The notes beneath the pieces were generated by a model. The model made no database searches. It saw nothing but the letters and a program-made list of their open reading frames with translations, and was not told the origin of the DNA. A DNA stretch of 64,000 nt, taken from contig NZ_JACGXL010000001.1 in the NCBI RefSeq assembly GCF_014138265.1, positions 1 through 64,000 on the forward strand, written 5' to 3'. Within the stretch, counting starts at the first letter, position 1. Each line of letters starts with the position of its first letter. Shown piece after piece: positions 64 through 30,091 of the stretch. Source of the DNA: Dokdonella fugitiva. Its GTDB lineage: Bacteria; Pseudomonadota; Gammaproteobacteria; Xanthomonadales; Rhodanobacteraceae. A program made the position numbers and the translations under genes.

Positions 64-85
64 TCCCGATCCTGGGATGAAACGC

Positions 86-4272: not shown

Positions 4273-4280
4273 GGCGACGC

Positions 4281-4630: not shown

Positions 4631-4755
4631 CGGTCGTCGTCGTGGATCGAGTGTGGCCGGTCGCGGCCGGTGTCGTCGGCCGTCCTGCCGACGCGTTCGC
4701 TCATAGCGTAGCGGTCGTGCGCATCGCAGTGCCAGCCTTGGTCGTCGCACGGTGG

Positions 4756-7239: not shown

Positions 7240-7251
7240 GCGACCGGCGCA

Positions 7252-7281
7252 TTCGACAAGAAGGTCGCCGTAAAGCTATAA
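7252..7281 (+). promoter_or_regulatory. candidate sigma70 promoter of rng
   Basis: TTCGAC at 7252-7257 and CTATAA at 7276-7281 with an 18-base spacer, 31 bases before the rng ATG. The local AT-rich patch in otherwise GC-rich DNA supports it. It also overlaps the start region of the divergent regulator gene. Confidence 0.4.
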
Positions 7282-7312
7282 GTCGCTTCAATTTCCCCCT
7301 CCAAGTCCTTAC

Positions 7313-8860: not shown

Positions 8861-8878
8861 CACCTTCGCGGAGGTCGT

Positions 8879-12769: not shown

Positions 12770-12884
12770 CCCGCCGCGTTGCATCGGGCCCGGTTGTGGT
12801 CCAGCATGCGCGGCCCCATCTACCCGGCTGGTTCCGCGCCCCACGTGCCGCGGCGCCGCCTTCCTCCCGCGCCTGGTCCCCCTC

Positions 12885-14327
12885 ATGTCCAATCTCATCG
12901 CCGTCGCCGAACGCCAACTGCTGAGCCCGGGCGGGCTCGCCACCCGCGATCTGGACGGCGTGTTCGCGCGCCTCATGGGGCCGTCGATCGATGCGGCCGA
13001 CCTGTATTTCCAGCATTCGCGCTCCGAGTCATGGGTGCTCGAGGACGGCATCGTCAAGGACGGTTCGCACTCGATCGAGCAAGGCGTCGGCGTGCGTGCG
13101 CTGTCGGGCGAGAAGGCCGGCTTCGCCTATTCCGACGAGATCGTGCTGCCGGCGCTCGTCGAAGCCGCGGGTTCGGCGCGCGCGATCGCGCAGGCCGGAG
13201 CGAACGGCGTCGGCAAGCCGCTCGCGATCGCCGCCTCGCGCGCCCTGTACGCACCCGTCGATCCGATCGACAGCCTGTCCAACGAAGCGAAGATCGCCGT
13301 GCTGCGCGAAGTCGATGCGACCTGTCGCGCAGCCGACCCGCGCGTGAAGCAGGTCATCGTGAGCATCGCCGCCGCGCTCGACACCGTGCTCATCGCGCAT
13401 TCGGACGGCACGCTCGCCGCCGACGTGCGCCCGCTCGTGCGCATGAACGTGCAGGTGATCGCCGAAGCGAACGGCCGGCGCGAGTCGGGCAGCAGCGGCG
13501 GCGGCGGCCGCTATACCTTCCCCGAGCTGCTCGAGAACGGTCGCGCCCATGCATTCGCGCGCGAGGCCGTGCGCGCGGCGCTGGTCAACCTCGACGCGGT
13601 GCCTGCGCCGGCGGGCAACATGCCGGTCGTGCTCGGCCCCGGCTGGCCCGGCGTGCTGTTGCACGAAGCGATCGGCCACGGTTTCGAAGGCGACTTCAAC
13701 CGCAAGGAAACGTCCGCGTTCGCGGGCATGCTCGGCGAAAGAGTCGCGGCCGACGGCGTCACCGTCGTCGACGACGGTACGCTCGCCGGGCGCCGCGGCT
13801 CGCTCAGCATCGACGACGAAGGCACGCCGACGAACTGCACGGTGCTGGTCGAGAACGGCGTGATGAAGGGCTACATGCAGGACAAGCTCAACGCGCGCCT
13901 GATGGGCATGCGTTCGACCGGCAACGGCCGCCGCGAGTCGTTCGCGCACCTGCCGATGCCGCGCATGACGAACACCTACATGCTGCCGGGCGAGCGCGAT
14001 CCGCAGGAGATCATCGCGTCGGTCAAGCGTGGCCTCTACGCGGTCAATTTCGGCGGTGGCCAGGTCGACATCACGAACGGCAAGTTCACCTTCTCGGCGA
14101 GCGAGGCCTACCTCATCGAAGACGGCAAGGTCACGCGCCCGGTCAAGGGAGCGACCCTGATCGGTTCCGGCGCGGACGTGCTCAAGCGCGTGTCGATGAT
14201 CGGCAACGACCTCCGCCTCGATGAAGGCGTCGGCGTCTGCGGCAAGGATGGGCAGAGCGTGCCCGTCGGCGTCGGCCAGCCGACCCTGAGGATCGACGGC
14301 ATGACCGTCGGAGGCACCGCGGCGTGA
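12885..14327 (+). CDS. tldD: metalloprotease TldD
   Basis: 480 residues, the normal length. The zinc motif HEAIGHGFE (HExxxH) lies at about 259-267, with later conserved blocks [19 protein letters not shown] and GFG-type [12 protein letters not shown]. TldD forms the heterodimer TldD-TldE (PmbA), which degrades unfolded peptides and processes some ribosomally made peptides. The partner pmbA is in this window at 16115. The ATG is preceded by CCCCCTC, a poor ribosome-binding site. Its stop overlaps the next gene by four bases (GTGA). Confidence 0.97.
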
Positions 14328-15535
14328 CGTTCGCGCGTTCGCTGCGCGGCGCGCGTTGGCTCGCCGTCCTCGCGTCGGCGTCGATCGCGGCGTTCGCGCA
14401 CGCGGGCGGGGGGGGCGATTCCGCGCTCGCGACGAAGAGCTGTGCGGCGCTGAAGGACCGCGTCGACGCGGTGCCGGGCAGCGCGCCCCTGTTCTTGCGC
14501 AGCTACGATGGCCCGAGCGGCGCCGGCGAACCGCTGGAACCTGCGTTGAAGGCGGCCGCGTTCGTCTACGACGAGGCGCTCGCGACGATCGCACTCGCCG
14601 GCTGCGGTGCGCTGCCCGAGGCCGCACGCATCGGTGAAGCGTTGCGGCTGGCCGCGACGACCGACACGCGCCTGCGCAACGTCTACCGCGCCGGTGTCGT
14701 CGACGCGAAGGTCTTGCGCAACGGCTGGTGGGACGCGGCGCAACAGCGCTGGGTCGAGGACGGCTACCAGTCGGGCACCGCGACCGGCAACGTCGCCTGG
14801 GCGGCATTGGCGTTGCTCGCATTGCACGACGCGACGCACGAGGCGAAATGGCTGGACGCGGCGCGCACGCTCGGCCGCTGGATCGTCGCGAACGAATCCG
14901 ATGCGCGCGGCGGCGGTTTCCGTGGCGGCGTGAACGGCTTCGACGCTTCGCCGGAACCGCTCGACTGGAAATCCACCGAGCACGCGCTCGACCTCGTCGC
15001 GCTGTTCACGCGACTCGCCGTGCTCGACGCCGGCGGCCACTGGGACGCGCAGGCGGACATCGCGCGCCGCTTCCTCGATGCGCAGTGGGACGCGCCCGGC
15101 GGATATTTCCGCATCGGCACGTTGCCCGACGGCAGCGCGAACCGCATGTCGTCCGCACTCGACGTGCAGCTGTGGTCGCAGCTGGTGCCGCGTGCCGACG
15201 ACGATTGGCGCCGTGGGCTCGCCTATGCGCAGCGCGCGCACGGCGTCGACTGCGGGTTCGATTTCAATGCGGACCGCGACGGCATCTGGATCGAAGGCAC
15301 GGCGCAGGCTGCGCTCGCCTATCGCGTGCGCGGTGACCCGCAGGCCGCGCGGAAGCACCTGTCGTGCGTCGCGCGCGAGTTCGCGCCGGGCGGCTACGCG
15401 TACGCGACGCGCGAGCCGCGCATCACGACCGGACTCGCGGCCGACGCGTACTACTTCCGCTTGCCGCATCTCGGTGCGACGGCGTGGGTCGCGCTCGCGG
15501 CGACGGGCACGAATCCGTATGCAGCTGCACGCTAG
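14324..15535 (+). CDS. secreted alpha/alpha-toroid-like protein of unknown function
   Basis: 403 residues with a clear Sec signal peptide (hydrophobic [16 protein letters not shown], cut near residue 27). The mature part shows repeated helix pairs with conserved aromatic/Gly turns ([45 protein letters not shown]), typical of (alpha/alpha)6 barrels found in glycan-active enzymes. I cannot name the substrate. It starts with GTG overlapping the tldD stop, so it is translated together with tldD, an unusual partner. It ends 12 bases from the convergent darP. Confidence 0.65.
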
Positions 15536-15547
15536 GCCGCGCGGGCG

Positions 15548-16090
15548 TCATTCCGCGGCATCGACGTCGCGCTCGCTCGCCTCGCGCAGCACGCGGAACA
15601 GTTCGCGATACGCGTGCGGCGGCTTGTCCGCCTTGCGTTCGGCGAGCGCGTTGCGCACGAGCTGGCGCAGGCGCTGGCGATCGGCGGACGGGTGCTGCGC
15701 GATGAATTCGGCGAGGGCGTCGTCACCGTCGGCGAGCAGGCGTTCGCGCCACGTTTCCAGGCGGTGCATCGCCGCGGTTTCACGGTGCGCCTTCTCGCGG
15801 TCGACGCCGAGCGAGTAGCGGATCGCCTCCACCGATTCCTCGTCGAGCTTGCGCATCTGCTTGGCGAGGAACTGGTTCTGGCGCTTGCGGGCGATGTGCG
15901 AGGTGACCGCGCGCGTGCGTCGCACTTCCTCGCGCAGGTCGTCGTCGAGCGGCACGCGGGCGAGTTCGGCCTCGCTGAGGTTCGCCAGCGTCTCGGCGAG
16001 CTTGAGGATGTCGAGTGCCTCGCGGCGCAACTGGCTGCGGCTCGGCTCCAGTGTCTCGTCCGGCGATTCGTCGTCGTGCGGGTCGTGCAT
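15548..16090 (-). CDS. darP: ribosome-associated protein DarP (YjgA, DUF615)
   Basis: 180 residues. Shows the DUF615 signature: SRSQLRREALDILKLAETL, PLDDDLREEVRRTRAV and the stretch HIARKRQNQFLAKQMR, followed by a helical C terminus. DarP/YjgA binds pre-50S particles and helps late large-subunit assembly. The ATG at 16090 gives the family-length acidic N terminus (MHDPHDDESPDETLEPS). It is divergent from pmbA with only 24 bases between the two starts, so each promoter must lie within the other's 5' region. Confidence 0.93.
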   Translation of the reverse strand: MHDPHDDESPDETLEPSRSQLRREALDILKLAETLANLSEAELARVPLDDDLREEVRRTRAVTSHIARKRQNQFLAKQMRKLDEESVEAIRYSLGVDREKAHRETAAMHRLETWRERLLADGDDALAEFIAQHPSADRQRLRQLVRNALAERKADKPPHAYRELFRVLREASERDVDAAE

Positions 16091-16114
16091 CAGGAATTCC
16101 AGGATAATGCTGCA

Positions 16115-17470
16115 ATGAATGCCATCGTGACCGACAAAGATACCAGCTCCGCCGACCTCGACCGCCTCGCGACGATCGCCGAGGACGTGGTCCGCCTCGC
16201 CCGGGCGAAGGGCGCCAGCGAGGCCGATGCCGCGGCGAGCATCGACCTCGGCCTCGCCGTCGGCGTGCGCCTCGGCGAAGTCGAGACGGTCGAGCGCACG
16301 CGCGATCGCGGCGTCTCGGTGACCGTCTATTTCGGCAGGCGCAAGGGTTCGGCCAACACCGCCGACCTCGATCCGAAGTCGATCGAGCAGACGGTCGAGC
16401 ACGCGTGCGCGATCGCGCGCCACACCGAAGAGGATCCGGCCAACGGCCTCGCCGACCCGGCCCTGCTGGCGACGACGTTCCCCGAACTCGACCTCTGGCA
16501 TCCGTGGGACATCACCCCAGAAGAGGCGATCCGCCTGGGCGTCGAGATCGAGGACGCCGGTCGCGCGTACGACCCGCGCATCGACAATTCGGACGGCGCT
16601 TCGGTGCAGGTCGGCGCGTCGCTGACCGCGTACGCGAACACGCTCGGCTTCGTCGGCACCGAGCGCGGCACGAGCCATACCCTGTCGGTCGCGCTGATCG
16701 CCGAGAACGAGTCGGGGATGCAGCGCGACTACTGGTACGACAGCGTGCGCCGCGCGAGCGACTTCGCGAGCGCCGCATCGATCGGCCGCAAGGCGGCCGA
16801 ACGCACGGTCGCACGCCTCGGCGCGCGGCGCCTGTCGACGCGTGCGTGCCCGGTGCTGTTCGTGCCCGAGGTCGCGCGCAGCTTCGTCGGCCATTTCCTC
16901 TCCGCGGTGAGCGGCGGCTCGCTGTACCGCCGCGCCAGCTTCCTCGTCGACCACGTCGGCAAGCCGGTCTTCCCGGCCTGGATGCAGATCGTCGAGCGGC
17001 CGCACATCCCGCGCGGCCACGGCTCCACCGCGTTCGACTCCGAGGGCGTCGCCACGCGCGACTCGGATCTCGTCAGGGACGGCGTGCTCGCGCGCTACAT
17101 CCTCGGCAGCTATTCGGCGCGCAAGCTCGGCCTGAAGTCGACCGGCAATGCCGGCGGCGTGCAGAACATCGTGGTGCAGCCGGGCACCGACGACCTCGCG
17201 GCGATGCTGCGGCGCATGGGCACCGGGCTGCTCGTGACCGAGCTCATGGGGCAGGGCGTGTCGCTCATCACCGGCGACTACTCGCGCGGTGCGAGCGGGT
17301 TCTGGGTCGAGAACGGCGAGATCGCTTACCCGGTCGAGGAGATCACGATCGCGGGCAACCTGCGCGACATGTACGCGAACGTCGTCGCGGTCGGCCACGA
17401 CGTCGATCCGCGCTCGCACGTGCTGACCGGCTCGATCCTGCTCGAGCGCATGACGATCGCGGGCGAGTAG
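16115..17470 (+). CDS. pmbA: metalloprotease PmbA/TldE
   Basis: 451 residues. Family blocks: an N-terminal region with VGVRLGEVETVE, the middle segment TACPVLF-like (TRACPVLFVPEVA), and the C-terminal GNAGGVQNIVVQPG and YPVEEITIAGNLRDMYANV. It lacks the HExxxH motif, as TldE subunits do; it partners TldD (12885-14327). The ATG at 16115 matches the usual short N terminus. Its last 60 or so bases have a degraded copy 1.3 kb downstream in the fossil at 18693-18755. Confidence 0.96.
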   Translation: MNAIVTDKDTSSADLDRLATIAEDVVRLARAKGASEADAAASIDLGLAVGVRLGEVETVERTRDRGVSVTVYFGRRKGSANTADLDPKSIEQTVEHACAIARHTEEDPANGLADPALLATTFPELDLWHPWDITPEEAIRLGVEIEDAGRAYDPRIDNSDGASVQVGASLTAYANTLGFVGTERGTSHTLSVALIAENESGMQRDYWYDSVRRASDFASAASIGRKAAERTVARLGARRLSTRACPVLFVPEVARSFVGHFLSAVSGGSLYRRASFLVDHVGKPVFPAWMQIVERPHIPRGHGSTAFDSEGVATRDSDLVRDGVLARYILGSYSARKLGLKSTGNAGGVQNIVVQPGTDDLAAMLRRMGTGLLVTELMGQGVSLITGDYSRGASGFWVENGEIAYPVEEITIAGNLRDMYANVVAVGHDVDPRSHVLTGSILLERMTIAGE

Positions 17471-17529: not shown

Positions 17530-18492
17530 ATGCGGAATCGGCTGGACATGGCGTTCCTCGCCGCGGCCTTCGCGTCGATCGCCACCTGCGTGGGCGCGGC
17601 GGAGCCGCCCGCCGATGAACTCGAGACGATCACGGTGCCGGCCCGGCCGCGTTGCGTGACGGGCGAGCCGCGCGCGTTCGAGCAGTCATGTGCGTACCTC
17701 GACCGGCGCGACGCGGTCGCCGCAGCGGAAGCGGGGGCGAAGGCCGCCGCGCTGGCCGGCATCTACGATTTCAGCACCGGCACGATCGGCGCCGAGCTCG
17801 CGCTCGCCGCCGACGGCTGGGCTGGATACCGCGAGTTCGCCGATGCCGGCGTGTCCCAGGGCATCACGGGGCGCTACCGCGAGCGTGGCGGTCGGCTCGT
17901 GGTGGACCTCGATCGGAGTACCGGCGGCCCGGACGGCGTCTCGCGCCTCGAATACGTCGTCGTCCGCTGGGGCAGCCACGTGTTCCTGATTCCGCGGGGC
18001 TCGCTCGTCGGGTTCATCGCCACGCTCGATGGCGAGGGGCTCGGCGGCACGACCCGGCTCGAACTGCGCGACTACCTGCAGCGTCGCCGCCAGCGCGACG
18101 ACGCGTTGTGCGGCCTGCCCGAACTGCCGCCCGACTGGCGTGGCTATCTCCATCCCGACCCGTTGCGGATGGTGCTCGCCGACGCGCGCATCGACGCCGC
18201 GCCGACGAGCAACCCCTATCTCACGAACGTGCGCCGGTATCGCGTCACCATCGATGCGGGGAGCGCCGACGGCGTGTTCGCCGGCATGTGGCTGGAAGGC
18301 GACCCCGCGCAGTTTCCCGGCGCCGACATCTTCGGCCAGGTCGACGATGTCGAACCGCACCGCGCGCGCGGCCATCTCTCGATCCTCGGCGATCGTGCGA
18401 ACGCACCGGTCGCCGGCGTGTCGATCGGCAAGGGGACGCGCCTCGCGTCCGGGCGGGGCTGGAAGCCGGATGCATGCATGGCGTCGGATTGA
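17530..18492 (+). CDS. exported protein of unknown function
   Basis: 320 residues with a Sec signal peptide (MAFLAAAFASIATCVGAAE, cut near residue 24). A strong Shine-Dalgarno AGGAGGTG at 17519-17526 supports the ATG. The mature protein has no motif I recognise; mixed beta character, with a possible repeat-free C-terminal half around RYRVTIDAGSADGVFAGMW, a turn-rich strand pattern like small beta-barrel domains. Several Cys (CVTGEPRAFEQSC) could make a disulphide. It follows pmbA by 59 bases. Confidence 0.6.
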   Translation: MRNRLDMAFLAAAFASIATCVGAAEPPADELETITVPARPRCVTGEPRAFEQSCAYLDRRDAVAAAEAGAKAAALAGIYDFSTGTIGAELALAADGWAGYREFADAGVSQGITGRYRERGGRLVVDLDRSTGGPDGVSRLEYVVVRWGSHVFLIPRGSLVGFIATLDGEGLGGTTRLELRDYLQRRRQRDDALCGLPELPPDWRGYLHPDPLRMVLADARIDAAPTSNPYLTNVRRYRVTIDAGSADGVFAGMWLEGDPAQFPGADIFGQVDDVEPHRARGHLSILGDRANAPVAGVSIGKGTRLASGRGWKPDACMASD

Positions 18493-18755
18493 GCGCTGTC
18501 CCGCCAGGCATGACTTCCGCGCCAGTGCGAGGACGCGTGGCGGTACCCAGAACGAGTTGCCACACCCGTCGGAGAGAGTGCACGAGCGAGAACGAAACAC
18601 CGCGGGCAGCGAGCGGTTCCACGACCATGCCCGAAGCGGCGGCGCCGACCGCGCGGTCGAACGACGACCGTACCTGCGCGTTGATCAGCCACTACCCGGT
18701 CGAGGAGATCACGATCGCGGGCAACCTGCGCGACGCGTACGCGAACATCGCCGAG
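18493..18755 (+). pseudogene. chimeric fossil: DUF4870 gene start joined to pmbA end
   Basis: Bases 18493-18692 are a decayed copy of the upstream region and first codons of the DUF4870 gene at 30092. They share the leader motif GGCATGACTTCCGCG, the GGAGAGAG ribosome-binding region, the codons for SNDDRT and the following ALI. The start codon is destroyed (GATGAGCGAG became CACGAGCGAG). Bases 18693-18755 then match pmbA 17327-17387 with four differences in 61 bases, encoding YPVEEITIAGNLRDAYAN. The two parts are in the same frame. No complete product is possible. Decay is uneven: the pmbA piece is far better kept. Confidence 0.85.
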
Positions 18756-18774
18756 GCTCCTCGCGCGACAGCGG

Positions 18775-20244
18775 TCAGCGCGATGCCGGCTCGGGGACGC
18801 GCAGCATGCACGCGCCGGCCAGCAGCAGGCCGACGCCACCGAGCAGCAGCGCGTCGATGGCCGCGTTCGCGAACAGGCTGCGCAGCAGGAACGCGAGGAT
18901 GCTCGCGGCGAACAACTGCGGCACGACGATGGACAAATTGAAGATGCCCATGTAGACGCCCATCTTGCGCGTAGGCACGCTGTTGGCGAGCAGCGCGTAG
19001 GGCAGCGACAGGATCGACGCCCAGGCGAATCCCACGCCAGCCATCGAAAGCAACAGCCAACGCGGATCGCGAATGGCCAGGAACGAGGCGAGCCCGCATC
19101 CGCCGAGGAAGAGGTTGAACACGTGACTGGCGCGCAATCCGAATCGGCGCGTCATCGGCGGTATCAGCGCGGCCGCGACGATCGCGAAGGCGTTGTACGC
19201 CGCGAACAGGACGCCGACCCAATTGGCGCCTTCGTTGTAGCGGGAGGACAGGGGATCGGTCGTGCCGAACTGGACTTGCGTGACCGCCGCGGTGGTGTAG
19301 ATCCACATCGCGAACAGGGCGAACCAGGAAAAGAACTGGACCGGGACGAGGCGTCGCATCGTTTCTGGCATCGCGCGCAGGTCGGCGACGATATGGGTGA
19401 ATGCGTTGTCGCGACGCCCGGTCGATGCGATCCACAGCACGAATCCATAGGCGATCATTCCGCCGCCGAGCAGATAGAGCTGCCGGTCCGAGCGTAGCCA
19501 TGACGTCGCCGCGAGTGCGATGCCGCCGGCGGCGAGCCATAGCAGCGCACGACGATGCACGTCCGCTCCCATCGGCGGGTCGTCTCCGGGGGGCGTGGCG
19601 TCGTCGAACGCATCGAGTGTGGCGGGCGCGTACTCGCGCGTCGTCAGCACGCTCCAGCCCATCGCCAACAGCAGCACGCATGCGCCGATCTGGAACGAGT
19701 AGCGGACCGTGTCCGGAAGGGCGCCCGCGGTCGCGGTGTTGGCGACGCCGAAGCGAGCGAACAGCCAGGGTGCGAGGCTCGCCACGACCGAGCCCGCGGC
19801 GATGAAGAAGGTCTGCATCGCGTAGCCGAGTGCACGCTGATCCGCAGGCAGCTGGTCGCCGACGAACGAGCGGAACGGGCCCATCGAGACGTTGATCGAA
19901 CCGTCGAGCAGCCAGAGCAGCAGCGCCGCTATCCATAGCGCGGGCGAGTCGGGCATCGCGAACAGGGCGATCGCGGCGAGGATCGCGCCGCCGAGGAAGT
20001 ACGGGCGCCGACGCCCGAACCGGCTCCAGGTGCGATCAGAACAGTGCCCGACGATCGGTTGAACGATCAGGCCGGTCAGCGGCGCCGCGATCCATAGCAC
20101 GGGAATGTCGTCCACGCCCGCTCCGAGCGTCTGGAAGATGCGGCTCATGTTCGAGTTCTGAAGCGCGAACGCGAACTGGATGCCGACGAAGCCGAAGCAC
20201 ATGTTCCAGATCTGCCAGAACCCCGAGCGCGGCCGCGTCGTCAT
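18775..20244 (-). CDS. SLC45/GPH-like sugar:proton symporter (MFS)
   Basis: 489 residues with about 12 membrane spans. N-terminal WQIWNMCFGFVGIQFAFALQ followed by NMSRIFQ, then the loop GHCSDRTWSRFGRRRPYF, are hallmarks of the SLC45-like/MalA-type disaccharide transporters seen in Caulobacter and Xanthomonas maltose or sucrose loci. It probably imports a di- or oligosaccharide from the periplasm. The start is nine bases after the lacI stop, so the two are co-translated. Its role fits the TonB receptor and glucosidase across the divergent promoter. Confidence 0.88.
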   Translation of the reverse strand: MTTRPRSGFWQIWNMCFGFVGIQFAFALQNSNMSRIFQTLGAGVDDIPVLWIAAPLTGLIVQPIVGHCSDRTWSRFGRRRPYFLGGAILAAIALFAMPDSPALWIAALLLWLLDGSINVSMGPFRSFVGDQLPADQRALGYAMQTFFIAAGSVVASLAPWLFARFGVANTATAGALPDTVRYSFQIGACVLLLAMGWSVLTTREYAPATLDAFDDATPPGDDPPMGADVHRRALLWLAAGGIALAATSWLRSDRQLYLLGGGMIAYGFVLWIASTGRRDNAFTHIVADLRAMPETMRRLVPVQFFSWFALFAMWIYTTAAVTQVQFGTTDPLSSRYNEGANWVGVLFAAYNAFAIVAAALIPPMTRRFGLRASHVFNLFLGGCGLASFLAIRDPRWLLLSMAGVGFAWASILSLPYALLANSVPTRKMGVYMGIFNLSIVVPQLFAASILAFLLRSLFANAAIDALLLGGVGLLLAGACMLRVPEPASR

Positions 20245-20253
20245 GGAGTACGT

Positions 20254-21306
20254 TCAGCGCGTACGCGAGCGCGGCCGTGGCCGTGGCCGCGAAGGAGCGG
20301 GACCGCTGGACTGGCGGATCTGCAACTCGTACGGCACGTGCACGAGCTCGCCCGCGGTCGGATCGCGGATGAGGGCAAGCAACTGCTCCGCCGCGATGCG
20401 ACCCATGTCGCGGCACGGCTGGCGCACGGTCGTCAGGCCTGGCCAGACGTGGCGCGACGTCGGTGTGTCGTCGAAGCCGAAGACGGACAAATCGCGCGGA
20501 ATGGCCAGGCCGCGTTCGAACGCCTCGTGCATGACGCCGCATGCACTGTCGTCGTTGGCGGCGAAGATCGCGGTGGGCGGCTCGTCGAGGTCGAGCAGGT
20601 GTCTGGCGCCGGCGATGCCGGCCTCGAACGAGAAGCCGCCGTCGACGACGAGCGCTTCGTCGTAGGGCAGGCCCGCGCGGCGCAATCCGTCGCGGTAGCC
20701 TGCGAGGCGCCAGGCGCGGCCGCCGTGCGGCAGCGGGCCGGCGACGTGACCGATGCGGCGGTGACCGAGTGCGACCGCGTGCGCGATCATCTCGGCCGAT
20801 GCTTTGCGTTCGTCGAGGATCGTGCCGACGCGCTCGTGGCCGATCTTCGCCTTCGCCGAAATCGTCGCGTAGCGCACGCCGAGTTCGTCGAGCCTGCGCA
20901 GCAGCTTCACGTCGTCGGCGAAGGGCGGCACCAGCACGAGGCCATCGGGGCGATAGCGTGCGATCGAATCCTCGACCGCGCCGATATGGTCGGCGCTGGC
21001 GTATTCGAGCGGTCGCAACATGGCGCTGTAGCGCGACTGCTCGCACGCGACGAGCATGCCGACGATGATTTCCATGATGTAGCTCGAACCTGCCGCTGGA
21101 TCGTCGAACACCAGCGAAACGAGATAGGATCGATTGCCGGCGAGGCCGCGTGCCGACGGATTGGGGCGGTAGTTGAGCGCCTTGGCTGCGGCCTCGACGC
21201 GGGCGCGCGTCTTCTCGCGCACGTTCGGTTCATTGTTGAAGACGCGCGACACGGTTTTCATGGAAACGCCCGCGGTGGCGGCGACGTCCTCGATTCTTGC
21301 TGGCAT
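20254..21306 (-). CDS. LacI-family transcriptional repressor
   Basis: 350 residues. The N-terminal helix-turn-helix and hinge (IEDVAATAGVSMKTVSRVFN, then NYRPNPSARGLAG) are followed by a periplasmic-binding-protein-like ligand domain (FGFDDTPTSRHVWPGLTTV) and an Arg/Pro-rich tail of about 18 residues. GGAGGAAC lies just before the ATG. It is the only regulator in the sugar locus. The operators it most likely binds are the duplicated palindromes at 23183-23225, between the halogenase and the TonB receptor. The inducer is expected to be the transported sugar. Confidence 0.93.
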   Translation of the reverse strand: MPARIEDVAATAGVSMKTVSRVFNNEPNVREKTRARVEAAAKALNYRPNPSARGLAGNRSYLVSLVFDDPAAGSSYIMEIIVGMLVACEQSRYSAMLRPLEYASADHIGAVEDSIARYRPDGLVLVPPFADDVKLLRRLDELGVRYATISAKAKIGHERVGTILDERKASAEMIAHAVALGHRRIGHVAGPLPHGGRAWRLAGYRDGLRRAGLPYDEALVVDGGFSFEAGIAGARHLLDLDEPPTAIFAANDDSACGVMHEAFERGLAIPRDLSVFGFDDTPTSRHVWPGLTTVRQPCRDMGRIAAEQLLALIRDPTAGELVHVPYELQIRQSSGPAPSRPRPRPRSRTR

Positions 21307-21382
21307 CCAGTTCCTCCGCAGGGGCGGTTCGCTGCCTGGCGGCGACCGGTGGCGCGCCGCATCGCCATGCTAGCGCAGAGTT

Positions 21383-22945
21383 TCAGGCCACGGCAGCGCC
21401 CGTCATGTCGCGCGCGCACAGGTGTTCGACCAGCGCGCGATGATCCGGCAGGTCCGCAGCGGCGCGCGGCGCCAGCGACCGGATCATCGCGAACTCGGCG
21501 CGCGCGCGCTCGTAGTGCGGGTAGAGCGCGTATGCCGGCTGCAGGTCGGTGGGGTACTCCATTCCGTACAGGATGAACTGCCAGCTCGCCGGCAGGAACA
21601 TTTCGACATCCGTCACGAAGTCCAGGCGGTGAGGCGGCCGTGAGCGCCACATCGCCAGTTGATCACGCAATGCGTCCGGTATGCTGCGTGGGTCGGCATT
21701 GTCGGCCCAGAACGCGGAATCCGTGCGCCGGCTGAGACAGTAGTGCATCTTGATGAAGTCGAAGATGCGCTCGTAGCGTCGCGTCATCAGCGTGTTGAAA
21801 TGGCGAGCGACGCGCGTCATGTCGCCATCGAGCGGGAGCAGGTGTGCGATCAGGTACGCCGCCATCTCGATCAGGCCGATACCGGTCGATTCCAGCGGCT
21901 CGACGAAGCCGGCCGACAGGCCGACGGCGACGCAATTGCGCAACCATTGCTCCGGACGATGACCGGCTTCGAAACGAAGCTGCCGCGCCGCAAGGCCATC
22001 GGCCGTTGCACCGATGTGGCTGCGCAGCACTTGCTCCGCGCGTGCGTCGTCCGTATGCGCCGACGAATAGACGTAACCGACGCCGCGCCGAGCCTGCAGC
22101 CCGATGTCCCAGGTCCATCCGGCCTCGTGCGCGGTGGAAATCGTGTACGACGGAATCGGCGCATCAGCGCTCGCATAGGGAACCTGTATCGCGAGCGCGC
22201 GATCGACGAACAGCACGTCCTTGGCGCTGCGAAACTTGGAGCCAAGTGCGCCGCCGATCAACGCCGCGCGAAAGCCGGTGCAGTCGACGTACAGGTCCGC
22301 CGTCAGGGCACCCGCTTCGCGCGTGCGCACGCAGGCGATTGCGCCGTGTTCGTCGAGTTCGACCTCGTCGACCGTGGCGATGCGGTGCTGGACGCCGAGG
22401 TCGCGCCCGTGCCGCGCGAGCAGGGCGGCGAAACGCGCTGCGTCGAAATGGTAGGCGTAGTTGAGGCGCCCCTGGTAATCGGCATCCGTGGCGCGCTTCG
22501 GTGCCCGTGAACGATCCGCGACATGCTTCTGCATGGTCGCAGCCTCGGCGAATGCGACGCCGTCGCCGGCCGCGCCGAGCAGCCAGTAGGGCAGCAGCTC
22601 GAGGTCGCGCTCGCGCTGGCTGGGCAGGCTGAAAGGGTGGAAGTAGTGATGGCTGCCGGTGCCGTCCGGGGCTTTCAGCCAGTGATCGAAGCGAATGCCT
22701 TGCTTGAACGTCGCGTTCGCCTCGCGCACGAAGCGGGCCTCGTCGAGTCCGATCGCCGAGAGGGTGCCGCGGATGGAGGGAAACGTGCCTTCGCCCACGC
22801 CCAGTATGCCGATGTCGCTGGATTCGACGAGTTCGACCGACAGTGACCGCCCCGACGCGATCTGCAGCGTACGGGCGAGATAGTTGGCCGTCAGCCAGCC
22901 CGCAGTGCCGCCGCCGACAATAAGAATCTTGTGCAATGCGGGCAT
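21383..22945 (-). CDS. FAD-dependent tryptophan-halogenase-like protein
   Basis: 520 residues. FAD-binding GGGTAGWLTA lies at 11-20, GVGEGTFPS at 50-57, and the Lys that activates HOCl in PrnA-type enzymes at Lys81 (NATFKQGIRF). The second signature usually WxWxIP reads GWTWDIGLQ, with Gly in place of Pro. ATG at 22945 with GGAGG six bases ahead; the longer ORF to 23821 is not supported. PrnA-family proteins chlorinate indoles using a flavin reductase. In sugar loci with TonB receptors such genes are common in this group and their role is not established. It shares the operator region with the receptor. Confidence 0.88.
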   Translation of the reverse strand: MPALHKILIVGGGTAGWLTANYLARTLQIASGRSLSVELVESSDIGILGVGEGTFPSIRGTLSAIGLDEARFVREANATFKQGIRFDHWLKAPDGTGSHHYFHPFSLPSQRERDLELLPYWLLGAAGDGVAFAEAATMQKHVADRSRAPKRATDADYQGRLNYAYHFDAARFAALLARHGRDLGVQHRIATVDEVELDEHGAIACVRTREAGALTADLYVDCTGFRAALIGGALGSKFRSAKDVLFVDRALAIQVPYASADAPIPSYTISTAHEAGWTWDIGLQARRGVGYVYSSAHTDDARAEQVLRSHIGATADGLAARQLRFEAGHRPEQWLRNCVAVGLSAGFVEPLESTGIGLIEMAAYLIAHLLPLDGDMTRVARHFNTLMTRRYERIFDFIKMHYCLSRRTDSAFWADNADPRSIPDALRDQLAMWRSRPPHRLDFVTDVEMFLPASWQFILYGMEYPTDLQPAYALYPHYERARAEFAMIRSLAPRAAADLPDHRALVEHLCARDMTGAAVA

Positions 22946-23182
22946 CGCCGCCTCCAGGTATCCAAGTCGAATTCCCATCATTTTTGCTGCGCTGCAAGGC
23001 AATGCTGCGCGCGCTTTCGGAACGCGGAACGTCGATGCGAAACGCTCGCCCCCGGTCATGGCGCTCGTTCGCATGCATGTTGCTACGCAGCGTAAATAGT
23101 CGCGCCGCGAGCGAGCCGATGCGCGTAGGTGGCGTGCGGTTGCAACACGTCCTCGTGCGAAGCATAGCGCGTTCGATGGGCC

Positions 23183-23225
23183 AATTGGCAGCGCTGTCAA
23201 TTCAAAATTGACAGCGCTGCCAATT
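23183..23225. promoter_or_regulatory. paired LacI-type operators, perfect 20-base inverted repeat
   Basis: Left arm AATTGGCAGCGCTGTCAATT (23183-23202) and right arm AATTGACAGCGCTGCCAATT (23206-23225) are exact reverse complements with a 3-base spacer. Each arm is itself a near-palindrome around AGCGCT (TGGCAGCGCTGTCA), the shape of a LacI-family operator, so this is two operators 23 bases apart centre to centre. Two dimers would sit on nearly the same helix face, two turns apart. The right arm contains the -35 hexamer of the receptor promoter and the left arm a minus-strand TTGACA, so bound repressor would block both directions. Confidence 0.85.
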
Positions 23226-23236
23226 TGGACTATCAA
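23208..23236 (+). promoter_or_regulatory. sigma70 promoter of the TonB receptor gene
   Basis: Perfect -35 TTGACA at 23208-23213, 17-base spacer, -10 TATCAA at 23231-23236. It gives a leader of about 50 bases to the receptor ATG. The -35 lies inside the right operator arm, so this is a strong promoter kept off by the LacI repressor. Confidence 0.8.
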
Positions 23237-23294
23237 TCGCCTCCGCTCCGTCGCGCGGTGGCATGCGGCGGATCTTTTCCGACGAGGAGGGGAC

Positions 23295-25709
23295 ATGAAA
23301 TTGCGCACACGAGCGCTGTCGAGCGCGATCATCGCGGTGCTTGCCTCGCATGCGTACGCTGCCGAGGACGCGCCTGCCGACGATCCGGCGGCGTCGAAAG
23401 ACAAGACCCAGTTGCTGGGCGAGATCCAGGTCACCGCGACCAAGCGCGAAACGCCGCTGCAGAAGACGGCCGTGGCGATCAGCGCGATCGACGGCGGCAC
23501 GCTCGACAAGGAACGCGTCGTCAACGTGGTCGACATCACCAAGCTCGTGCCGGGTCTCGCCGCGACGACCCAGGGTGACCATGGTGTCGTCACCCTGACG
23601 ATGCGCGGCATCGGCAACGACAGTGCGAAAACGGAGTACGCCGATCCCGAAGTGGCGCTGTTCGTCGACGGCGTGTACGCGCCGCGCGCGGAAGCTGCGG
23701 CGTCGCTGCTGCTCGATCTCGACTCGATCGAAGTACTGCGCGGGCCGCAGGGAACGCTGTGGGGACGCAACTCCACCGTCGGCGCCGTCAACTTCCAGAC
23801 CGCCAAACCCGACCTCGGCAAGACGTACGGCTACGGCCAGATGGAGGTCGGCGACTACGGCCACGTCGGCCTGCGTGCGGCGATCAACGTGCCGCTGAGC
23901 GACACCTTCGCGTTCCGCGTCGCTCTCGGCCAGGAGCAGCACGACGGCTACGTCGACTACCAGTCGCCGAACGGCCAGTTGCCTTCGGTCGACAGCCAGC
24001 GCGCAGCTTATCTCGCGTCGGGCGGACTGCCGGAGAACTTCCGCGCGATCGACCCGAACATCTACGTGACGAGCGGCGACAAGTACAGTTCGCAGGACCA
24101 GTCCGGCGTGCGCGTGAGCACGCTGTGGACGCCGACGGCGACGCTGAGCTGGAACCTCTCGCTCGAGTACTTCCGTGATCGCGGCACGCCGCTGGCGAAC
24201 CTGATGCAGCACCCGCGCGACGGCCAGGACTTCTGGTCGATCCTCGCCGACACGCCGGCGAAGCTCGAACGCGACGCGTATGCCCTGCGCAGTCGCGTCG
24301 ACTGGGATATCAGCGAGGCGATGAGCCTGAGCTACATCGCGGGCTTCTCCAAATTCGATGGTTCGAGCGACTTCGACCAGGATGGCGGCGTGCAGGTGCC
24401 GACCAGCTTCGCCACCGGCTCGACCTTCCAGGACGACCGCACCAACTACGAGCGCTTCCGCAGCAACAGCCACGAACTGGACCTGAAATCGTCGGGCGAC
24501 AACACCGTCGACTGGATTCTCGGCCTCTACTACGCGTCCGAAGACAATTCGATCCGTTTCGACATCCCGATCTTCAACGGCACGCCGCAGGGCACCGTCG
24601 CGTGGCAGGGTTCGTTCATCCAGCCGAAGGAGACGGTCGAGTCGACCGCGGGTTTCGCCCAGGCGACATGGCACATCAACGACCGTCTACGCCTGACCGG
24701 CGGCGCGCGCTACACGCACGACGAGAAGGAAAACCGCGGTGGCCGCGGCTGGGGTTGGGCCTACGACGCGAACGTGCCGCAGATTCCGATCGCGCCCGGC
24801 ACGATTCCGGGCCCTGGCACGGGCTTCGGCCTCGGTGTCGGCGGCATCAATGACGGCAAGTACGATGCGAACAAGACGACGTGGCTGCTGCGCCTGGAGG
24901 GCGACCTCTCGGACACGACGTTCGTCTACGGCAGCGTGTCGACCGGCTACAAGTCCGGCGGCTTGCAGGACGGCGGCGTGCCGTACAAGGGCGAGACGCT
25001 GACCAACTACGAGGTCGGCGTGAAGATGACCTTCCTCGACCACCGGCTGACCTGGAACAACGCGCTGTACTACGAGGACTTCAAGGACTTCCAGCTGTCC
25101 GCGCCGATCACCTTCATCGACGGCAGCCGTGGCCTGGGTTTCTCGAACGTCGCGGGTAGCACCAAGGTGGTCGGCTTCGAGTCCGAGATTGCTGCGCAAC
25201 TCGGCGAAGCGGATCGCCTCAATCTCGTGCTCTCGTTGCTGCCGAAGAAGGAACTCGGCACCTTGCGCTATGCCGGCAGCAACGACTACGGCGGCCTGCC
25301 GCCGTGCGCACCGGAATCAGGAATCGGCAATTGCCTTGACGTGTCGGGAAACGAACTCGCGCATGCGCCGGATGCGTCGTTGACGCTGATCTACGAACAC
25401 GTCTTCACGTTCGCCAACGGCAGTACGCTCGCGCCGCGTTTCAGCGGTCACGCCGAAACGTCGAGCTGGCTGAGCCCGTTCAACCTCGGTGAGGGCGACA
25501 AGCAGAAGGCGTACTTCCGTGGCGATTTCAGCATGCGCTACACGCCCGCCGATGCGCGGTGGTGGGCAGGCCTTTACGTGAGCAATTTCACCGACGAAAA
25601 GGTGCGTACGAACGCCGGCCGCACCGCGCTCGGCAACGGTCAGTTCATCTACACCTCGCAGTATCTGCCGCCGCGCACGATCGGAGTCAATTTCGGCTTC
25701 GACTTCTAG
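23295..25709 (+). CDS. TonB-dependent outer-membrane receptor (carbohydrate type)
   Basis: 804 residues. Signal peptide 1-22 (ending SHAYA), then a TonB-box-like GEIQVTATKRETPLQ, the plug domain (VPGLAATTQGDHGVVTLTMRG; LRGPQGTLWGRNSTVGAVN) and a 22-strand barrel ending FGFDF with the C-terminal Phe needed for outer-membrane insertion. It imports a ligand using the TonB proton-motive coupling. The neighbours (glucosidase, sugar permeases, LacI) make a glucoside or oligosaccharide the likely ligand. ATG at 23295 with GAGGAGGGG ahead. Confidence 0.95.
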   Translation: MKLRTRALSSAIIAVLASHAYAAEDAPADDPAASKDKTQLLGEIQVTATKRETPLQKTAVAISAIDGGTLDKERVVNVVDITKLVPGLAATTQGDHGVVTLTMRGIGNDSAKTEYADPEVALFVDGVYAPRAEAAASLLLDLDSIEVLRGPQGTLWGRNSTVGAVNFQTAKPDLGKTYGYGQMEVGDYGHVGLRAAINVPLSDTFAFRVALGQEQHDGYVDYQSPNGQLPSVDSQRAAYLASGGLPENFRAIDPNIYVTSGDKYSSQDQSGVRVSTLWTPTATLSWNLSLEYFRDRGTPLANLMQHPRDGQDFWSILADTPAKLERDAYALRSRVDWDISEAMSLSYIAGFSKFDGSSDFDQDGGVQVPTSFATGSTFQDDRTNYERFRSNSHELDLKSSGDNTVDWILGLYYASEDNSIRFDIPIFNGTPQGTVAWQGSFIQPKETVESTAGFAQATWHINDRLRLTGGARYTHDEKENRGGRGWGWAYDANVPQIPIAPGTIPGPGTGFGLGVGGINDGKYDANKTTWLLRLEGDLSDTTFVYGSVSTGYKSGGLQDGGVPYKGETLTNYEVGVKMTFLDHRLTWNNALYYEDFKDFQLSAPITFIDGSRGLGFSNVAGSTKVVGFESEIAAQLGEADRLNLVLSLLPKKELGTLRYAGSNDYGGLPPCAPESGIGNCLDVSGNELAHAPDASLTLIYEHVFTFANGSTLAPRFSGHAETSSWLSPFNLGEGDKQKAYFRGDFSMRYTPADARWWAGLYVSNFTDEKVRTNAGRTALGNGQFIYTSQYLPPRTIGVNFGFDF

Positions 25710-25719
25710 GCGGATGCCT

Positions 25720-25786
25720 TCGATGCGTCACGTTCCGCGCCGGTTCCTTGCTCGGGAAGGATCCGATCGGGCGTGACGCATCGAAC
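25720..25786 (+). repeat. 14-base inverted repeat between the receptor and glucosidase genes
   Basis: Arms 25720-25733 and 25773-25786 are perfect reverse complements (TTCGATGCGTCACG). The 39-base loop holds a smaller stem (TCCTT/AAGGA). There is no T run, so it is not an ordinary terminator. Placed between a receptor gene and an enzyme gene of one operon, it could protect the upstream mRNA or lower downstream expression. Confidence 0.7.
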
Positions 25787-25848
25787 GGCAGCCGCCACCA
25801 CGATGGCACGTGCCACACGCCGTTTGAACTTGAACAGGAATGCGATCC

Positions 25849-27327
25849 ATGCGACGACGCGAAGCTTTGCGCCACGTCATCGGTCTGGCGGGAATACCCC
25901 TGCTGGCAACCCGCTGGGGGCGTGCGACGATGGCGACCGATGAGGCCGCAGTCGGAGGTGCGAAGCTGCTCGACGTCGATGCGTTTCCCGCCGGCTTCCT
26001 GTGGGGATCGGCGACGGCGGCGTATCAGATCGAAGGCGCCTGGAACGTCGACGGGCGCGGCGAGTCGATATGGGATCGTTTCGCCCACACGCCGGGCAAG
26101 GTGAAGAACGACGCCAACGGCGACGTCGCGTGCGACAGCTATCACCGCTATCGCGACGACATCGCTCTGATGCGCGAGCTCGGGCTGAAGACCTACCGCT
26201 TCTCGATCTCGTGGCCGCGCGTCCAGCCAGGAGGGCGCGGTGCATCGAACCCGAAGGGGCTGGACTACTACAAGCGCCTGGTCGACGCCTTGCTGGAAGC
26301 GCGCATCCGCCCGTTCCCGACGCTCTACCACTGGGATCTCCCGCAGCCGCTCGAAGACGCGGGTGGCTGGCCGAACCGCGACACCGCGGAACGTCTCGCC
26401 GACTACGCGCGGATCGTCGCGGACGCGCTCGGCGACCGCATCGGCCAGTGGGCGATCTTCAACGAACCCAAGACGTTCACGCACGTCGGCTACTGGCAAG
26501 GCACGCACGCGCCGGGGCGCACGGACCCGCTCGCGTTGTTGCGCGCCACCCATACGGTGAATCTCGCCCAAGGCCTGGCGTTCCGCGTACTCAAGGCGGC
26601 CAAGGCGAAACCGCAGGTGGGTGGCGTAATCGATGTCGCGCCGATGAATGCCGCGACCGATTCGGATGCCGACCGCGCCGCCGCGCAGCGCTGGTTCCGC
26701 TTCCTCAACCTGTGGTTCCTCGATCCGCCCTTGAAGGGAAGCTACCCGCAGGGGGTGCTGCCGCCTGCCCAGCAGGATGCGCTGCTCGGCTGTCGCGCCG
26801 GCGACGACGCGATCATGCGTGCGCCGCTCGACTTCATCGGCCTCAACTATTACTCACCGTGGGTCGTGCGTCACGCTCCGCGAGGCAACGGCATCCCCGG
26901 GCTCGACACGCAGGCCGACTGGGCGGCCGGGCCGGACGAGAAGACCGACAACGGCTGGGACATCGATCCTCCGGGCTTCTATCGCATCCTGCGCGAGATC
27001 ACGCAGCACACCGGCGGGCTGCCGATCGAGATCACCGAGAACGGCGCTGCCTACAACAACTTGCCGGACAGCCAGGGTCATGTGCACGACCGCAAGCGCA
27101 TCGTCTGGCTGCAGCGTCACCTGCGCGAACTGTCGCGGGCGATACGCGACGGCGTGCCGGTGCGCGCGTACCACTGCTGGAGCCTGCTCGACAACTTCGA
27201 ATGGGCGGAAGGCTATACGCAGCGCTTCGGGCTCGTCTACGTCGATTTCAAGAACCGCCAGCAGCGCACGATCAAGGATTCGGGCCACTGGTACGCGAAA
27301 GTCATCGCCGCCAACCGCGTCGTGTGA
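25849..27327 (+). CDS. GH1 beta-glucosidase, Tat-exported
   Basis: 492 residues from the ATG at 25849, which suits the upstream AGGA better than the ATG at 25840. The first 24 residues (MRRREALRHVIGLAGIPLLA) form a twin-arginine-type signal. The GH1 core starts at FPAGFLWGSATAAYQIEGA; the acid/base Glu is E206 in FNEPK and the nucleophile E397 in ITENG, both present. GH1 enzymes cleave terminal beta-glucosides or galactosides with retention. Export through Tat would place it in the periplasm, acting on what the TonB receptor brings in; the product would then enter by the MFS transporters. Confidence 0.94.
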   Translation: MRRREALRHVIGLAGIPLLATRWGRATMATDEAAVGGAKLLDVDAFPAGFLWGSATAAYQIEGAWNVDGRGESIWDRFAHTPGKVKNDANGDVACDSYHRYRDDIALMRELGLKTYRFSISWPRVQPGGRGASNPKGLDYYKRLVDALLEARIRPFPTLYHWDLPQPLEDAGGWPNRDTAERLADYARIVADALGDRIGQWAIFNEPKTFTHVGYWQGTHAPGRTDPLALLRATHTVNLAQGLAFRVLKAAKAKPQVGGVIDVAPMNAATDSDADRAAAQRWFRFLNLWFLDPPLKGSYPQGVLPPAQQDALLGCRAGDDAIMRAPLDFIGLNYYSPWVVRHAPRGNGIPGLDTQADWAAGPDEKTDNGWDIDPPGFYRILREITQHTGGLPIEITENGAAYNNLPDSQGHVHDRKRIVWLQRHLRELSRAIRDGVPVRAYHCWSLLDNFEWAEGYTQRFGLVYVDFKNRQQRTIKDSGHWYAKVIAANRVV

Positions 27328-27345
27328 GGGTGGCCGGGTGATCGC

Positions 27346-28605
27346 ATGAAAATCGAAGCGTTCCTGCTCGCGATGGTGCTGATCCTCGCCGCGCCGTTCC
27401 TGCTGTGGCGCCTGCTCGGGCTGGAGCGCTTCTTTCCGATCGTCGTCGTGCAGATCGTCAGCGGCATCCTGCTCGGGCCTGGCGTGCTCGGCCGCGCGTT
27501 CCCCGGCTATTACGCCGCGGTGTTCACGCCCGAAGCCGTCGGAGCGCTCGGCGGCATCGCATCCTGGGCGGTGATGATATTCGTCGCACTGGCCGGCATC
27601 GAACTCGACATGCATGCCGCCTGGAACGACAGACGCGAGAGCTTCATCACGGCCGGTCTGGCGCTCGGCACGCCCTTGTTGTGCGGATCCGTCGCGGGCG
27701 CGTGCCTGCTCGCGTTCGACGGGTGGATCGGTGCGGACGCGTCCGCACCGCAGTTCGTGCTGGGCGTCGGCATGGCGTGCGCGGTGACGGCCTTGCCGAT
27801 CCTGGTCCTCCTGATGGAGCGTCTCGGTATCCTGCACGCGCCGCTCGGGCAGCGCATCCTGCGTTACGCGAGCGTCGACGACGTCGTGATCTGGGCGGTA
27901 CTCGCACTGATCCTCGTCGATTGGTCGCGCCTCGCCGCGCAGGCTTGTTTTCTGCTCGCGTTCCCCCTCGCTGCCTTCGCCTTCCGCGGCCTGATGCGCC
28001 GCTTCGGCGAAGACGATCGCTGGTTCGCGGTACTCGTCTGGATACCGGTATGCGCCGTGGCGGCGGACGTGGCCGGTCTGCATTTCATGGTCGGGGCCTT
28101 CCTTGCCGGTGCCGTCGTCGATGCGGGGTGGTTAGGGCGCACGCGGCTCGACGCGATGCGGCACGACGTGCTGCTCGCGTTCATGCCCGTGTTCTTCCTG
28201 TCGACCGGCCTGCGCACGCACTGGAGCATGAGCGGGCGTGCAGTGCTGCTGGCTACGGCCGCCCTGTTGCTCGCATCGGTCGGCGGAAAGTTGATCGGCG
28301 CCCGCCTCGCCGCGAAGGTGCTGCGATGGCCGGTCCTCGAGGGCAGGATCGTCGGCTGGCTGCTGCAGACCAAGGCGCTGATCATGATCATCTTCGCGTC
28401 GGTCCTGCTCGATCGCGCGATCATCAGTGCGGCGACGTTCACGGCCCTGCTCCTGATGGCTGTTGCAAGCACGATGCTGACCGTGCCCGTGGTCGCGCCT
28501 TTGCTCGCGCGGCTACGGCACGCCGAGCGCTCCCATGCCTGTCGCGCGACCGTTGCGAGCGTGCCGGCCGAATTGCCCGATCGACGCGCCAGGAGATATG
28601 CATGA
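27346..28605 (+). CDS. CPA2-type cation:proton antiporter
   Basis: 419 residues, about 12-13 hydrophobic helices, no C-terminal RCK/TrkA domain. The ion-site region SVDDVVIW at about residues 175-182 carries the paired acidic residues of the Na+/H+ exchanger (Kef/Nap-like) family, with LAGIELD upstream. It exchanges Na+ or K+ for H+ across the inner membrane. It follows the glucosidase by 18 bases and overlaps the next gene by four, so it belongs to the sugar operon; why is unclear. It could balance protons or sodium used by the symporters. Confidence 0.85.
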   Translation: MKIEAFLLAMVLILAAPFLLWRLLGLERFFPIVVVQIVSGILLGPGVLGRAFPGYYAAVFTPEAVGALGGIASWAVMIFVALAGIELDMHAAWNDRRESFITAGLALGTPLLCGSVAGACLLAFDGWIGADASAPQFVLGVGMACAVTALPILVLLMERLGILHAPLGQRILRYASVDDVVIWAVLALILVDWSRLAAQACFLLAFPLAAFAFRGLMRRFGEDDRWFAVLVWIPVCAVAADVAGLHFMVGAFLAGAVVDAGWLGRTRLDAMRHDVLLAFMPVFFLSTGLRTHWSMSGRAVLLATAALLLASVGGKLIGARLAAKVLRWPVLEGRIVGWLLQTKALIMIIFASVLLDRAIISAATFTALLLMAVASTMLTVPVVAPLLARLRHAERSHACRATVASVPAELPDRRARRYA

Positions 28606-29990
28606 ATGCCGCAACACCCAGCGTCACCGCTCGCCCTGGTGCGACCGCATTGGTCACTTGCGTGCTCGCCGCGCTGGCAGGGCTGATGTTCGGCCTCGAT
28701 ATCGGCGTCATTTCCGGTGCGACCCAGTTCATCCAGGCCGAATTCGGAATCCCCGACGACACGATCGAATGGATCGTCAGCGCGATGATGTTCGGCGCTG
28801 CGGTCGGTGCCGCGGCGGCCGGCTGGATGTCCAATGCGCTCGGGCGAAAGCGTTCACTGCAGCTGGGCGCGGCCCTGTTCGTGGTCGGCTCTCTCTTGTG
28901 CGGCATGGCGCCTTCGCCGTCGAGCCTGATTGTTGCGCGTTTCGTGCTCGGTCTGGCGATCGGTCTGGCCGCGTTCGCCGCACCCCTCTACCTCGCCGAG
29001 GTCGCGCCCGAGGACACGCGCGGCGCGATGATCTCGTTGTACCAGCTGATGATAACGATCGGCATCCTTGTCGCGTTCCTGTCGGACACGGCATTCAGCT
29101 ATTCGGGTAGCTGGCGCTGGATGCTCGGCATCATTGCATTGCCCGGCATCCTGTTCCTGCTTGGCCTTGTGCTGCTGCCCGACAGCCCTCGCTGGTTGCT
29201 CATGCGCAATCGTCGCGAGGAAGCACTGCAAGTACTCGCGCGCTTGCGACGCGATCCGCAACTGGTCGCCCGCGAGGCGGCGGATATCGAGGAGCAGCTG
29301 CGCACGCCGCAGACCGGCTGGCGGCTGTTCCTCGAGAACGCCAACTTCCGTCGGTCGGTCTTCCTGGGAATCATGCTGCAGCTCGTGCAGCAATTCACCG
29401 GCATGAACGTCGTCATGTACTACGCGCCACGCATCTTCCACGACATGGGCTACGATACGGCGTCGCAGATGTGGTTCACCGCGATCGTCGGTGCGACCAA
29501 CGTGCTTGCGACCTTCATCGCGATCGCCTGGGTCGACCGTTGGGGTCGCAAGCCGATCCTGTACGTCGGCTTCGCCGTGATGGCCCTCGGCCTCGGCGTA
29601 GTCGGCACGTTGATGGACGGCGGCATCGCCGGTCGTGCACAGCAACTTGTCGCGGTCGGCATGCTGCTGCTGTTCATCGTCGGGTTCGCCATGTCGGCAG
29701 GGCCGTTGATCTGGGTACTGTGTTCGGAGATCCAGCCGCTGAAGGGCAGGGACTTCGGCATCGCCTGCTCGACCGTCACCAACTGGATCGCGAACATGGC
29801 CGTCGGGGCGACGTTCCTGTCGCTACTCAACGGCATCGGCCATGCCGCGACGTTCTGGCTCTATGCCGCGCTCAACCTCGCTTTCATCGGGCTCACCTGG
29901 GCGCTCGTTCCGGAGACCAGCGGCGTTACGCTGGAGCAGGTGGAGCGCAAACTGATGCGCGGCGTACGCCTGCGCGACATCGGCCGCTGA
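28602..29990 (+). CDS. MFS sugar porter, GalP/XylE-like
   Basis: 462 residues, 12 membrane spans. Sugar-porter signatures: GLMFGLDIGVISGA in helix 1, the loop GWMSNALGRKRSL, PLYLAEVAPEDTRG, the PDSPRWLL motif, the QQFTGMNVVMYYAP sequence in helix 7 and VPETSGVTLE in the tail. These mediate H+-coupled import of hexoses or pentoses. The ATG overlaps the antiporter stop (ATGA), with AGGAGA ahead. It probably imports the glucose freed by the GH1 enzyme. Confidence 0.94.
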   Translation: MNAATPSVTARPGATALVTCVLAALAGLMFGLDIGVISGATQFIQAEFGIPDDTIEWIVSAMMFGAAVGAAAAGWMSNALGRKRSLQLGAALFVVGSLLCGMAPSPSSLIVARFVLGLAIGLAAFAAPLYLAEVAPEDTRGAMISLYQLMITIGILVAFLSDTAFSYSGSWRWMLGIIALPGILFLLGLVLLPDSPRWLLMRNRREEALQVLARLRRDPQLVAREAADIEEQLRTPQTGWRLFLENANFRRSVFLGIMLQLVQQFTGMNVVMYYAPRIFHDMGYDTASQMWFTAIVGATNVLATFIAIAWVDRWGRKPILYVGFAVMALGLGVVGTLMDGGIAGRAQQLVAVGMLLLFIVGFAMSAGPLIWVLCSEIQPLKGRDFGIACSTVTNWIANMAVGATFLSLLNGIGHAATFWLYAALNLAFIGLTWALVPETSGVTLEQVERKLMRGVRLRDIGR

Positions 29991-30091
29991 CTGCGCCGAT
30001 CCCGCCGTGCCTCCGGGCATGACTTCCGCGCTATTGTGCCGGTGCCTGGCGGCGCCCATGAAGGGGGCGTCACTTCAACCGGAGAGAGCAG

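Follow-up and report, generated by a model that had tools for sequence, protein, structure and literature searches.

A decayed in-frame chimera of DUF4870 and pmbA sequence in Dokdonella fugitiva, probably an old tandem-duplication seam

The window, i.e. the whole stretch of 64,000 nt that was analysed, contains a short chimeric remnant (the "fossil", 18494-18756) in which a copy of the leader and start of a DUF4870 gene is followed in frame by a copy of the 3′ region of pmbA. Both source genes are present in intact form in the same window, on either side of the fossil, and are separated from it by gene X and by a sugar-use cluster, respectively (Table 1). The fossil is probably the seam that remained when the pmbA-DUF4870 neighbourhood was duplicated in tandem long ago.

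Table 1. Features of the fossil, its sources and the adjacent inserts (positions in the window).
Feature	Position	Strand	Remarks
pmbA source segment	17327..17390	+	within intact pmbA, open frame ending 17470; PmbA/TldD domains (Pfam)
Gene X	17530..18492	+	insert between pmbA and fossil; absent from the G015 interval
DUF4870 part of fossil	18494..18692	+	copies the DUF4870 gene from its leader, with the ribosome-binding stretch, through codon 36; putative end of unit 1
ACG replacing the DUF4870 start codon	18582..18584	+	aligned with ATG 30092-30094
Join point	18692..18693	+	source alignments read by eye
pmbA part of fossil	18693..18756	+	copies pmbA 3′ region, codons for YPVEEITIAGNLRDMYANVVA; putative start of unit 2
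Sugar-use cluster	18775..29990	.	insert between fossil and DUF4870 (Pfam); absent from the G015 interval
DUF4870 source segment	30003..30199	+	leader and first 36 codons of intact gene 30092-30517; PF09685, E 5.8e-33

A search of the organism's own genome (4.77 Mb) gave an identity of 71% (E 2.3e-19) between the DUF4870 part of the fossil and its source segment. The score was 109, compared with a mean of 19.7 (SD 2.7, maximum 33) for 500 dinucleotide-preserving shuffles. The pmbA part is identical to its source at 59 of 64 bases (92%), with a significance taken from the E-value in the same genome (6.5e-20) and not from shuffles. Its first 42 bases are the same as in the intact pmbA, and all five changes fall into the last 22 bases (p 0.005). 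Past position 18756 the match to pmbA is at shuffle level only, i.e. 40% of 1000 shuffles reach its score. Chance similarity is thus ruled out by the E-values of both parts and, in the case of the DUF4870 part, also by the shuffles. Contig 4 has a third match, of 31 bases, which was taken as a chance match, its translation not being pmbA-like. An earlier note on this DNA had described the first 200 bases as a decayed DUF4870 leader and start, and the next 61 bases as the end of pmbA with four differences. Both assignments were correct, and both alignments lie well beyond chance; a fifth difference is found just beyond the 61 bases.

The pmbA genes of 23 relatives share at most 40 of the 42 bases that are identical between the fossil and the genome's own pmbA, which argues that the copy is of local origin. 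A foreign donor of the pmbA part was considered and rejected: pmbA genes of other genera match it with up to 92-93% identity over 43-59 bases, and only the own pmbA matches all of the first 42 bases. For the intact DUF4870 leader, the three best candidates per genome were scored in 233 genomes of the family. Matches were obtained in 27 of them, including the own genome, the best other match being 41 bases in G015, and no donor was recognised among these candidates.

The fossil has retained the ribosome-binding stretch GGAGAGAG and 16 leader bases, GGCATGACTTCCGCGC, in intact form, while the start codon has been lost by the change of ATG to ACG. An open frame crosses the junction, with SNDDRTCALISH before and YPVEEITIAGNLRD after the seam. 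The visible ribosome-binding region, the missing start codon and the in-frame junction had all been pointed out in the earlier note. Among the residues that have changed are two conserved ones at the DUF4870 start, W and G, and the M of pmbA; the frame is still open. Judged by the lost start codon and the amino-acid-changing drift, the fossil appears to be a pseudogene fragment without an evident function. The alignments with the two sources, read by eye, show no exact overlap at 18692/18693 today; a microhomology may have decayed. At the seams of tandem duplications a microhomology or repeat is frequent, and it is not obligatory.

We mapped the genes of the window onto 18 stretches from related genomes, which were represented by one genome per species. 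The two genes are near each other in 13 of the 18 stretches (11 from this genus, the remaining two from two different genera), and in all 13 pmbA precedes DUF4870 on the same strand. In 11 of the 13 the gap between them is 45-246 bp, as estimated from the aligned ends. The gap is wide in the other two, 1.7 kb for G005 and 3.9 kb for G008, and in the window about 12.6 kb separate the pmbA stop from the DUF4870 start. As for the remaining stretches, the two genes of G010 lie on separate contigs (L027 and L028), pmbA occurs without DUF4870 in L037 (G009) and L038 (G029), and no query gene matched L041, the second stretch of G006. The DUF4870 gene of G009 is on a different contig from its pmbA. 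The nearest relative is G015, with tldD and pmbA proteins that are 97% and 92% identical. It contains the counterparts of both fossil parts on one strand and in reversed order, i.e. the DUF4870 part at L025 6144-6324 (72% identity) and the pmbA part at 5826-5890. Exactly one DUF4870 match was found in 15 of the 16 genus genomes (own genome included) and none in the remaining one, which is 80% complete. A match across the seam was found in none of 60 other genomes (61 were searched, and in most of them the best 12 candidates were scored).

Since pmbA is followed by DUF4870 in the relatives, the fossil order of DUF4870 start and then pmbA end is that of a tandem join. Both pieces come from one neighbourhood and lie on the same strand, and the downstream piece comes first. 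On the two sides of the seam, the pmbA 3′ end before it and the DUF4870 gene after it are intact, but gene X and the cluster have taken the place of the two spacer copies.

We infer a single, small duplication and the following order of events. In the ancestral state, DUF4870 would have been located within about 250 bp after pmbA. A segment of about 0.5 kb on the measure of G015, reaching from the pmbA 3′ end through codon 36 of DUF4870, would have been duplicated head to tail, yielding the arrangement pmbA, DUF4870 start joined to pmbA end, DUF4870. The useless seam would then have lost the start codon and drifted. Gene X would have come to lie in interval copy 1 and the 11 kb sugar-use cluster in copy 2. 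What else there was of the duplicate would thereby have been replaced, and the seam would now lie about 11 kb from the intact DUF4870 gene.

For a rough dating of the duplication, fourfold-site differences between the own genome and G015 can be used, which are 23% for tldD, 22% for pmbA and 24% for DUF4870. Changes confined to the fossil were found in 24 of 241 columns (10%) of a three-way alignment of fossil, intact copy and G015. This is near half of the fourfold-site difference, suggesting as a rough estimate that the duplication occurred near the split of the own lineage and that of G015. Several points speak against a tandem duplication. The two interval copies carry different inserts, so that at least two further events are required, and a duplication free of inserts was seen in none of the genomes examined. 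The lack of a microhomology at the seam, the clustering of the five pmbA changes, and the affinities of the leader and the uneven decay with ambiguous columns that are given below also count against it.

Gene X, whose end lies one base ahead of the DUF4870-like stretch, encodes a protein of 320 residues without a Pfam match, and the start of this protein resembles a secretion signal. Matches were found in seven of the 233 family genomes including the own; the other six have identities of 27-29%. Among named genomes, a match of 29 residues was found in a Pseudomonas metagenome genome. The sugar-use cluster contains, according to Pfam, genes for an MFS transporter, a LacI-type regulator, a Trp-halogenase-like protein, a GH1 protein, an exchanger, a sugar transporter and others. 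Its first gene has a match in only one of the 16 genus genomes, the own, and in 182 of the 233 family genomes including the own, with 60-69% identity among the matches listed besides the own. The GC content is 66.2% in 18758-29990, compared with 70.7% to the left (1-17470) and 70.1% to the right (30092-64000). No mobile-element repeats were found at the borders of the inserts; the exact matches there span no more than 8-14 bases, and the longest of them is the leader itself. We also considered gene X as a mobile gene and rejected this; it lacks a Pfam match and has six weak relatives in the family, and the loci of these relatives, like 24 loci of MFS relatives, contain neither pmbA nor DUF4870 within their flanks of about 1.5 kb. 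At window 23183-23225 the cluster has a perfect inverted repeat with arms of 20 bases (AATTGGCAGCGCTGTCAATT / AATTGACAGCGCTGCCAATT) and 3 bases between them, which resembles an operator for the LacI-type regulator encoded at 20254-21306.

The different inserts can be due either to two later insertions or to one unequal exchange that stacked two alleles of the interval. In the latter case, pmbA-X-DUF4870 and pmbA-sugar cluster-DUF4870 would have come from different strains, incoming DNA would have fused the former allele, at its DUF4870 start, to the pmbA end of the latter, the fossil marking the seam, and a subsequent deletion would have trimmed the second pmbA end. Such an exchange explains in one step why each interval copy has its own insert, and the intervals of G005 and G008 indeed contain other inserts. 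It would mean that an interval between core genes can accumulate accessory cargo stepwise, without integrase or mobile-element enzymes. We nevertheless regard it as unlikely: no genome was found with X alone or the cluster alone in the interval (X being present in seven of 233 family genomes), the flanks of the X and MFS loci described above lack both genes, and the fossil shares 42 identical bases with the own pmbA. The inserts of G008 (L033 2189-6128) and G005 (L036 8470-10160) are unrelated to those of the window. The long frames of the former presumably encode signal-transduction proteins, and the gene of the latter is, we assume, a catalase. The interval between pmbA and DUF4870 may therefore be an insertion-prone place, as seen in three genomes only (own, G005 and G008).

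The leader of the fossil resembles that of the own genome (63.6% identity) no more than that of G015 (64.1%), a further point in favour of an exchange between strains. The sites that decide between the two are distributed 21:21 (own:G015) in the leader and 7:0 after 18644 (p 0.015). When G010 was included in a four-sequence count, one leader site grouped the fossil with the own genome, and five and six sites supported the other groupings. These tests, like those on the clustering of the five pmbA changes and on the decay with ambiguous columns, were chosen after the data had been seen, and their results are hints only. They could indicate that another strain contributed one of the two leaders, together with X or with the cluster.

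Very unlikely, in our view, is a patch repair, in which a break at the border of X and the cluster was filled with short copies from two nearby genes. In its favour are the shortness of both fragments and their position exactly between the two inserts. The order and orientation of the pieces would be a coincidence, however, whereas a tandem join forces both.

The earlier note had proposed that complete second copies of pmbA and DUF4870 once stood here and were fused by a deletion. The same order of pieces would result, and the duplicated unit could have been larger. The extra deletion would have to happen to fit a tandem join, and the look-up for a relative with a complete second pmbA-DUF4870 pair was negative in all 16 genus genomes. 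In addition, the nine differences between the fossil and the intact genes after 18644 (alignment read by eye) are all amino-acid-changing and none is silent, so that there is no sign that a second copy was ever kept by selection. A short head-to-tail duplication suffices, and a full second pair with a fusing deletion is not needed; we consider the latter highly improbable. What stands of the proposal is that a duplicate of two local genes, stitched together and apparently without function, is present, and that it arose by duplication.

The earlier note also regarded the pmbA part as much less decayed and suggested a recent gene conversion from pmbA. The pmbA part is indeed better preserved than the fossil leader. 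However, the DUF4870 part ends with 49 bases (18644-18692) that match their source at 92% (45/49) and are thus equally well kept. The well-preserved block begins at about 18644, which places the step in preservation inside the DUF4870 part, away from the junction. We counted columns of the three-way alignment separately for the leader (128 gap-free columns to 18643) and the remainder (113 columns after it). In the leader, 16 columns are changed in the fossil only, 21 in the intact copy only and 21 in G015 only, and in nine all three differ. The respective values after 18643 are 8, 0, 7 and 1. Fossil-only changes do not differ significantly between the two (16/128 versus 8/113, p 0.20), in contrast to changes of the intact copy only (21/128 versus 0/113, p 8e-7). 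If the ambiguous columns are counted as changes of the fossil, the values are 25/128 and 9/113 (p 0.015). The fresher look after 18643 is therefore largely explained by an intact copy that remained constant at the conserved protein and drifted in the leader and linker. On these counts, constraint on the intact partner would account for most of the contrast in preservation. More generally, when one part of a fossil looks more "decayed" than another, this can be due in large part to differing constraint on the intact genes used for comparison.

The run of 42 identical bases followed by five changes in 22, as well as the uneven decay obtained with the ambiguous columns, would fit a recent conversion of the pmbA part. 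Yet two donors would be needed, because the block 18644-18756 spans DUF4870 and pmbA sequence and cannot be a tract from one donor, and the unambiguous fossil-only changes show no clear difference. With the block crossing the junction and constraint explaining most of the contrast, a conversion is not needed and is, in our estimation, barely credible. A functioning small gene or regulatory element has next to no probability, since the open frame and the 16 intact leader bases are opposed by the lost start codon, by the lack of a seam-spanning match in the 60 other genomes and by the abundance of open frames at about 70% GC (144 of at least 60 aa in 24 kb).

Tandem duplications by illegitimate recombination and their join points are known from bacteria, and a promoter capture for a transferred gene has been described among them (PMC11111574). 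The fossil resembles the join points described there in being a head-to-tail seam at which the end of one unit meets the start of the next, yielding a chimera of two genes. It differs in being old and decayed, with only the seam left and the rest of the duplicate replaced by inserts. In contrast to the promoter capture described there (PMC11111574), none is evident here, and the gene beyond the seam is on the opposite strand. The interval also resembles integration hotspots, as three genomes of the genus differ in the inserts that it contains; unlike what is typical of hotspots, no mobile-element repeats were found at the insert borders in the window, and the hotspot character is deduced from three cases. 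Read as the seam of a tandem duplication, the fossil is what remains of an event of a known kind and an ordinary, well-preserved trace of bacterial chromosome change. It also exemplifies how a short tandem duplication leaves a chimeric open scrap that can be mistaken for a gene in annotation. Our literature searches yielded no report that joins DUF4870 with pmbA and, by title among the matches listed, nothing specific on chimeras from partial duplications; an absence from print is not claimed for either.

A simple scan found no promoter-like site in the fossil leader or in the intact leader. It says little, because the intact leader, which must have a promoter, was also negative. One weak terminator-like site was found in the fossil, compared with 0.2 expected. 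A core of the DUF4870 leader, CATGACTTCCGCGCTATTG, is present at window 30017-30039, at L025 6144-6166 and in L027 upstream of 10256, and is conserved more strongly than its surroundings in the own genome, G015 and G010. It is possibly a promoter, though a sigma-70 scan found none there. In the fossil version of the core, TATTGTG has been changed to CAGTGCG. The N-terminal linker of the DUF4870 protein (window 30100-30165) can hardly be aligned between the own genome and G015, while the rest of the gene has a DNA identity of 93%.
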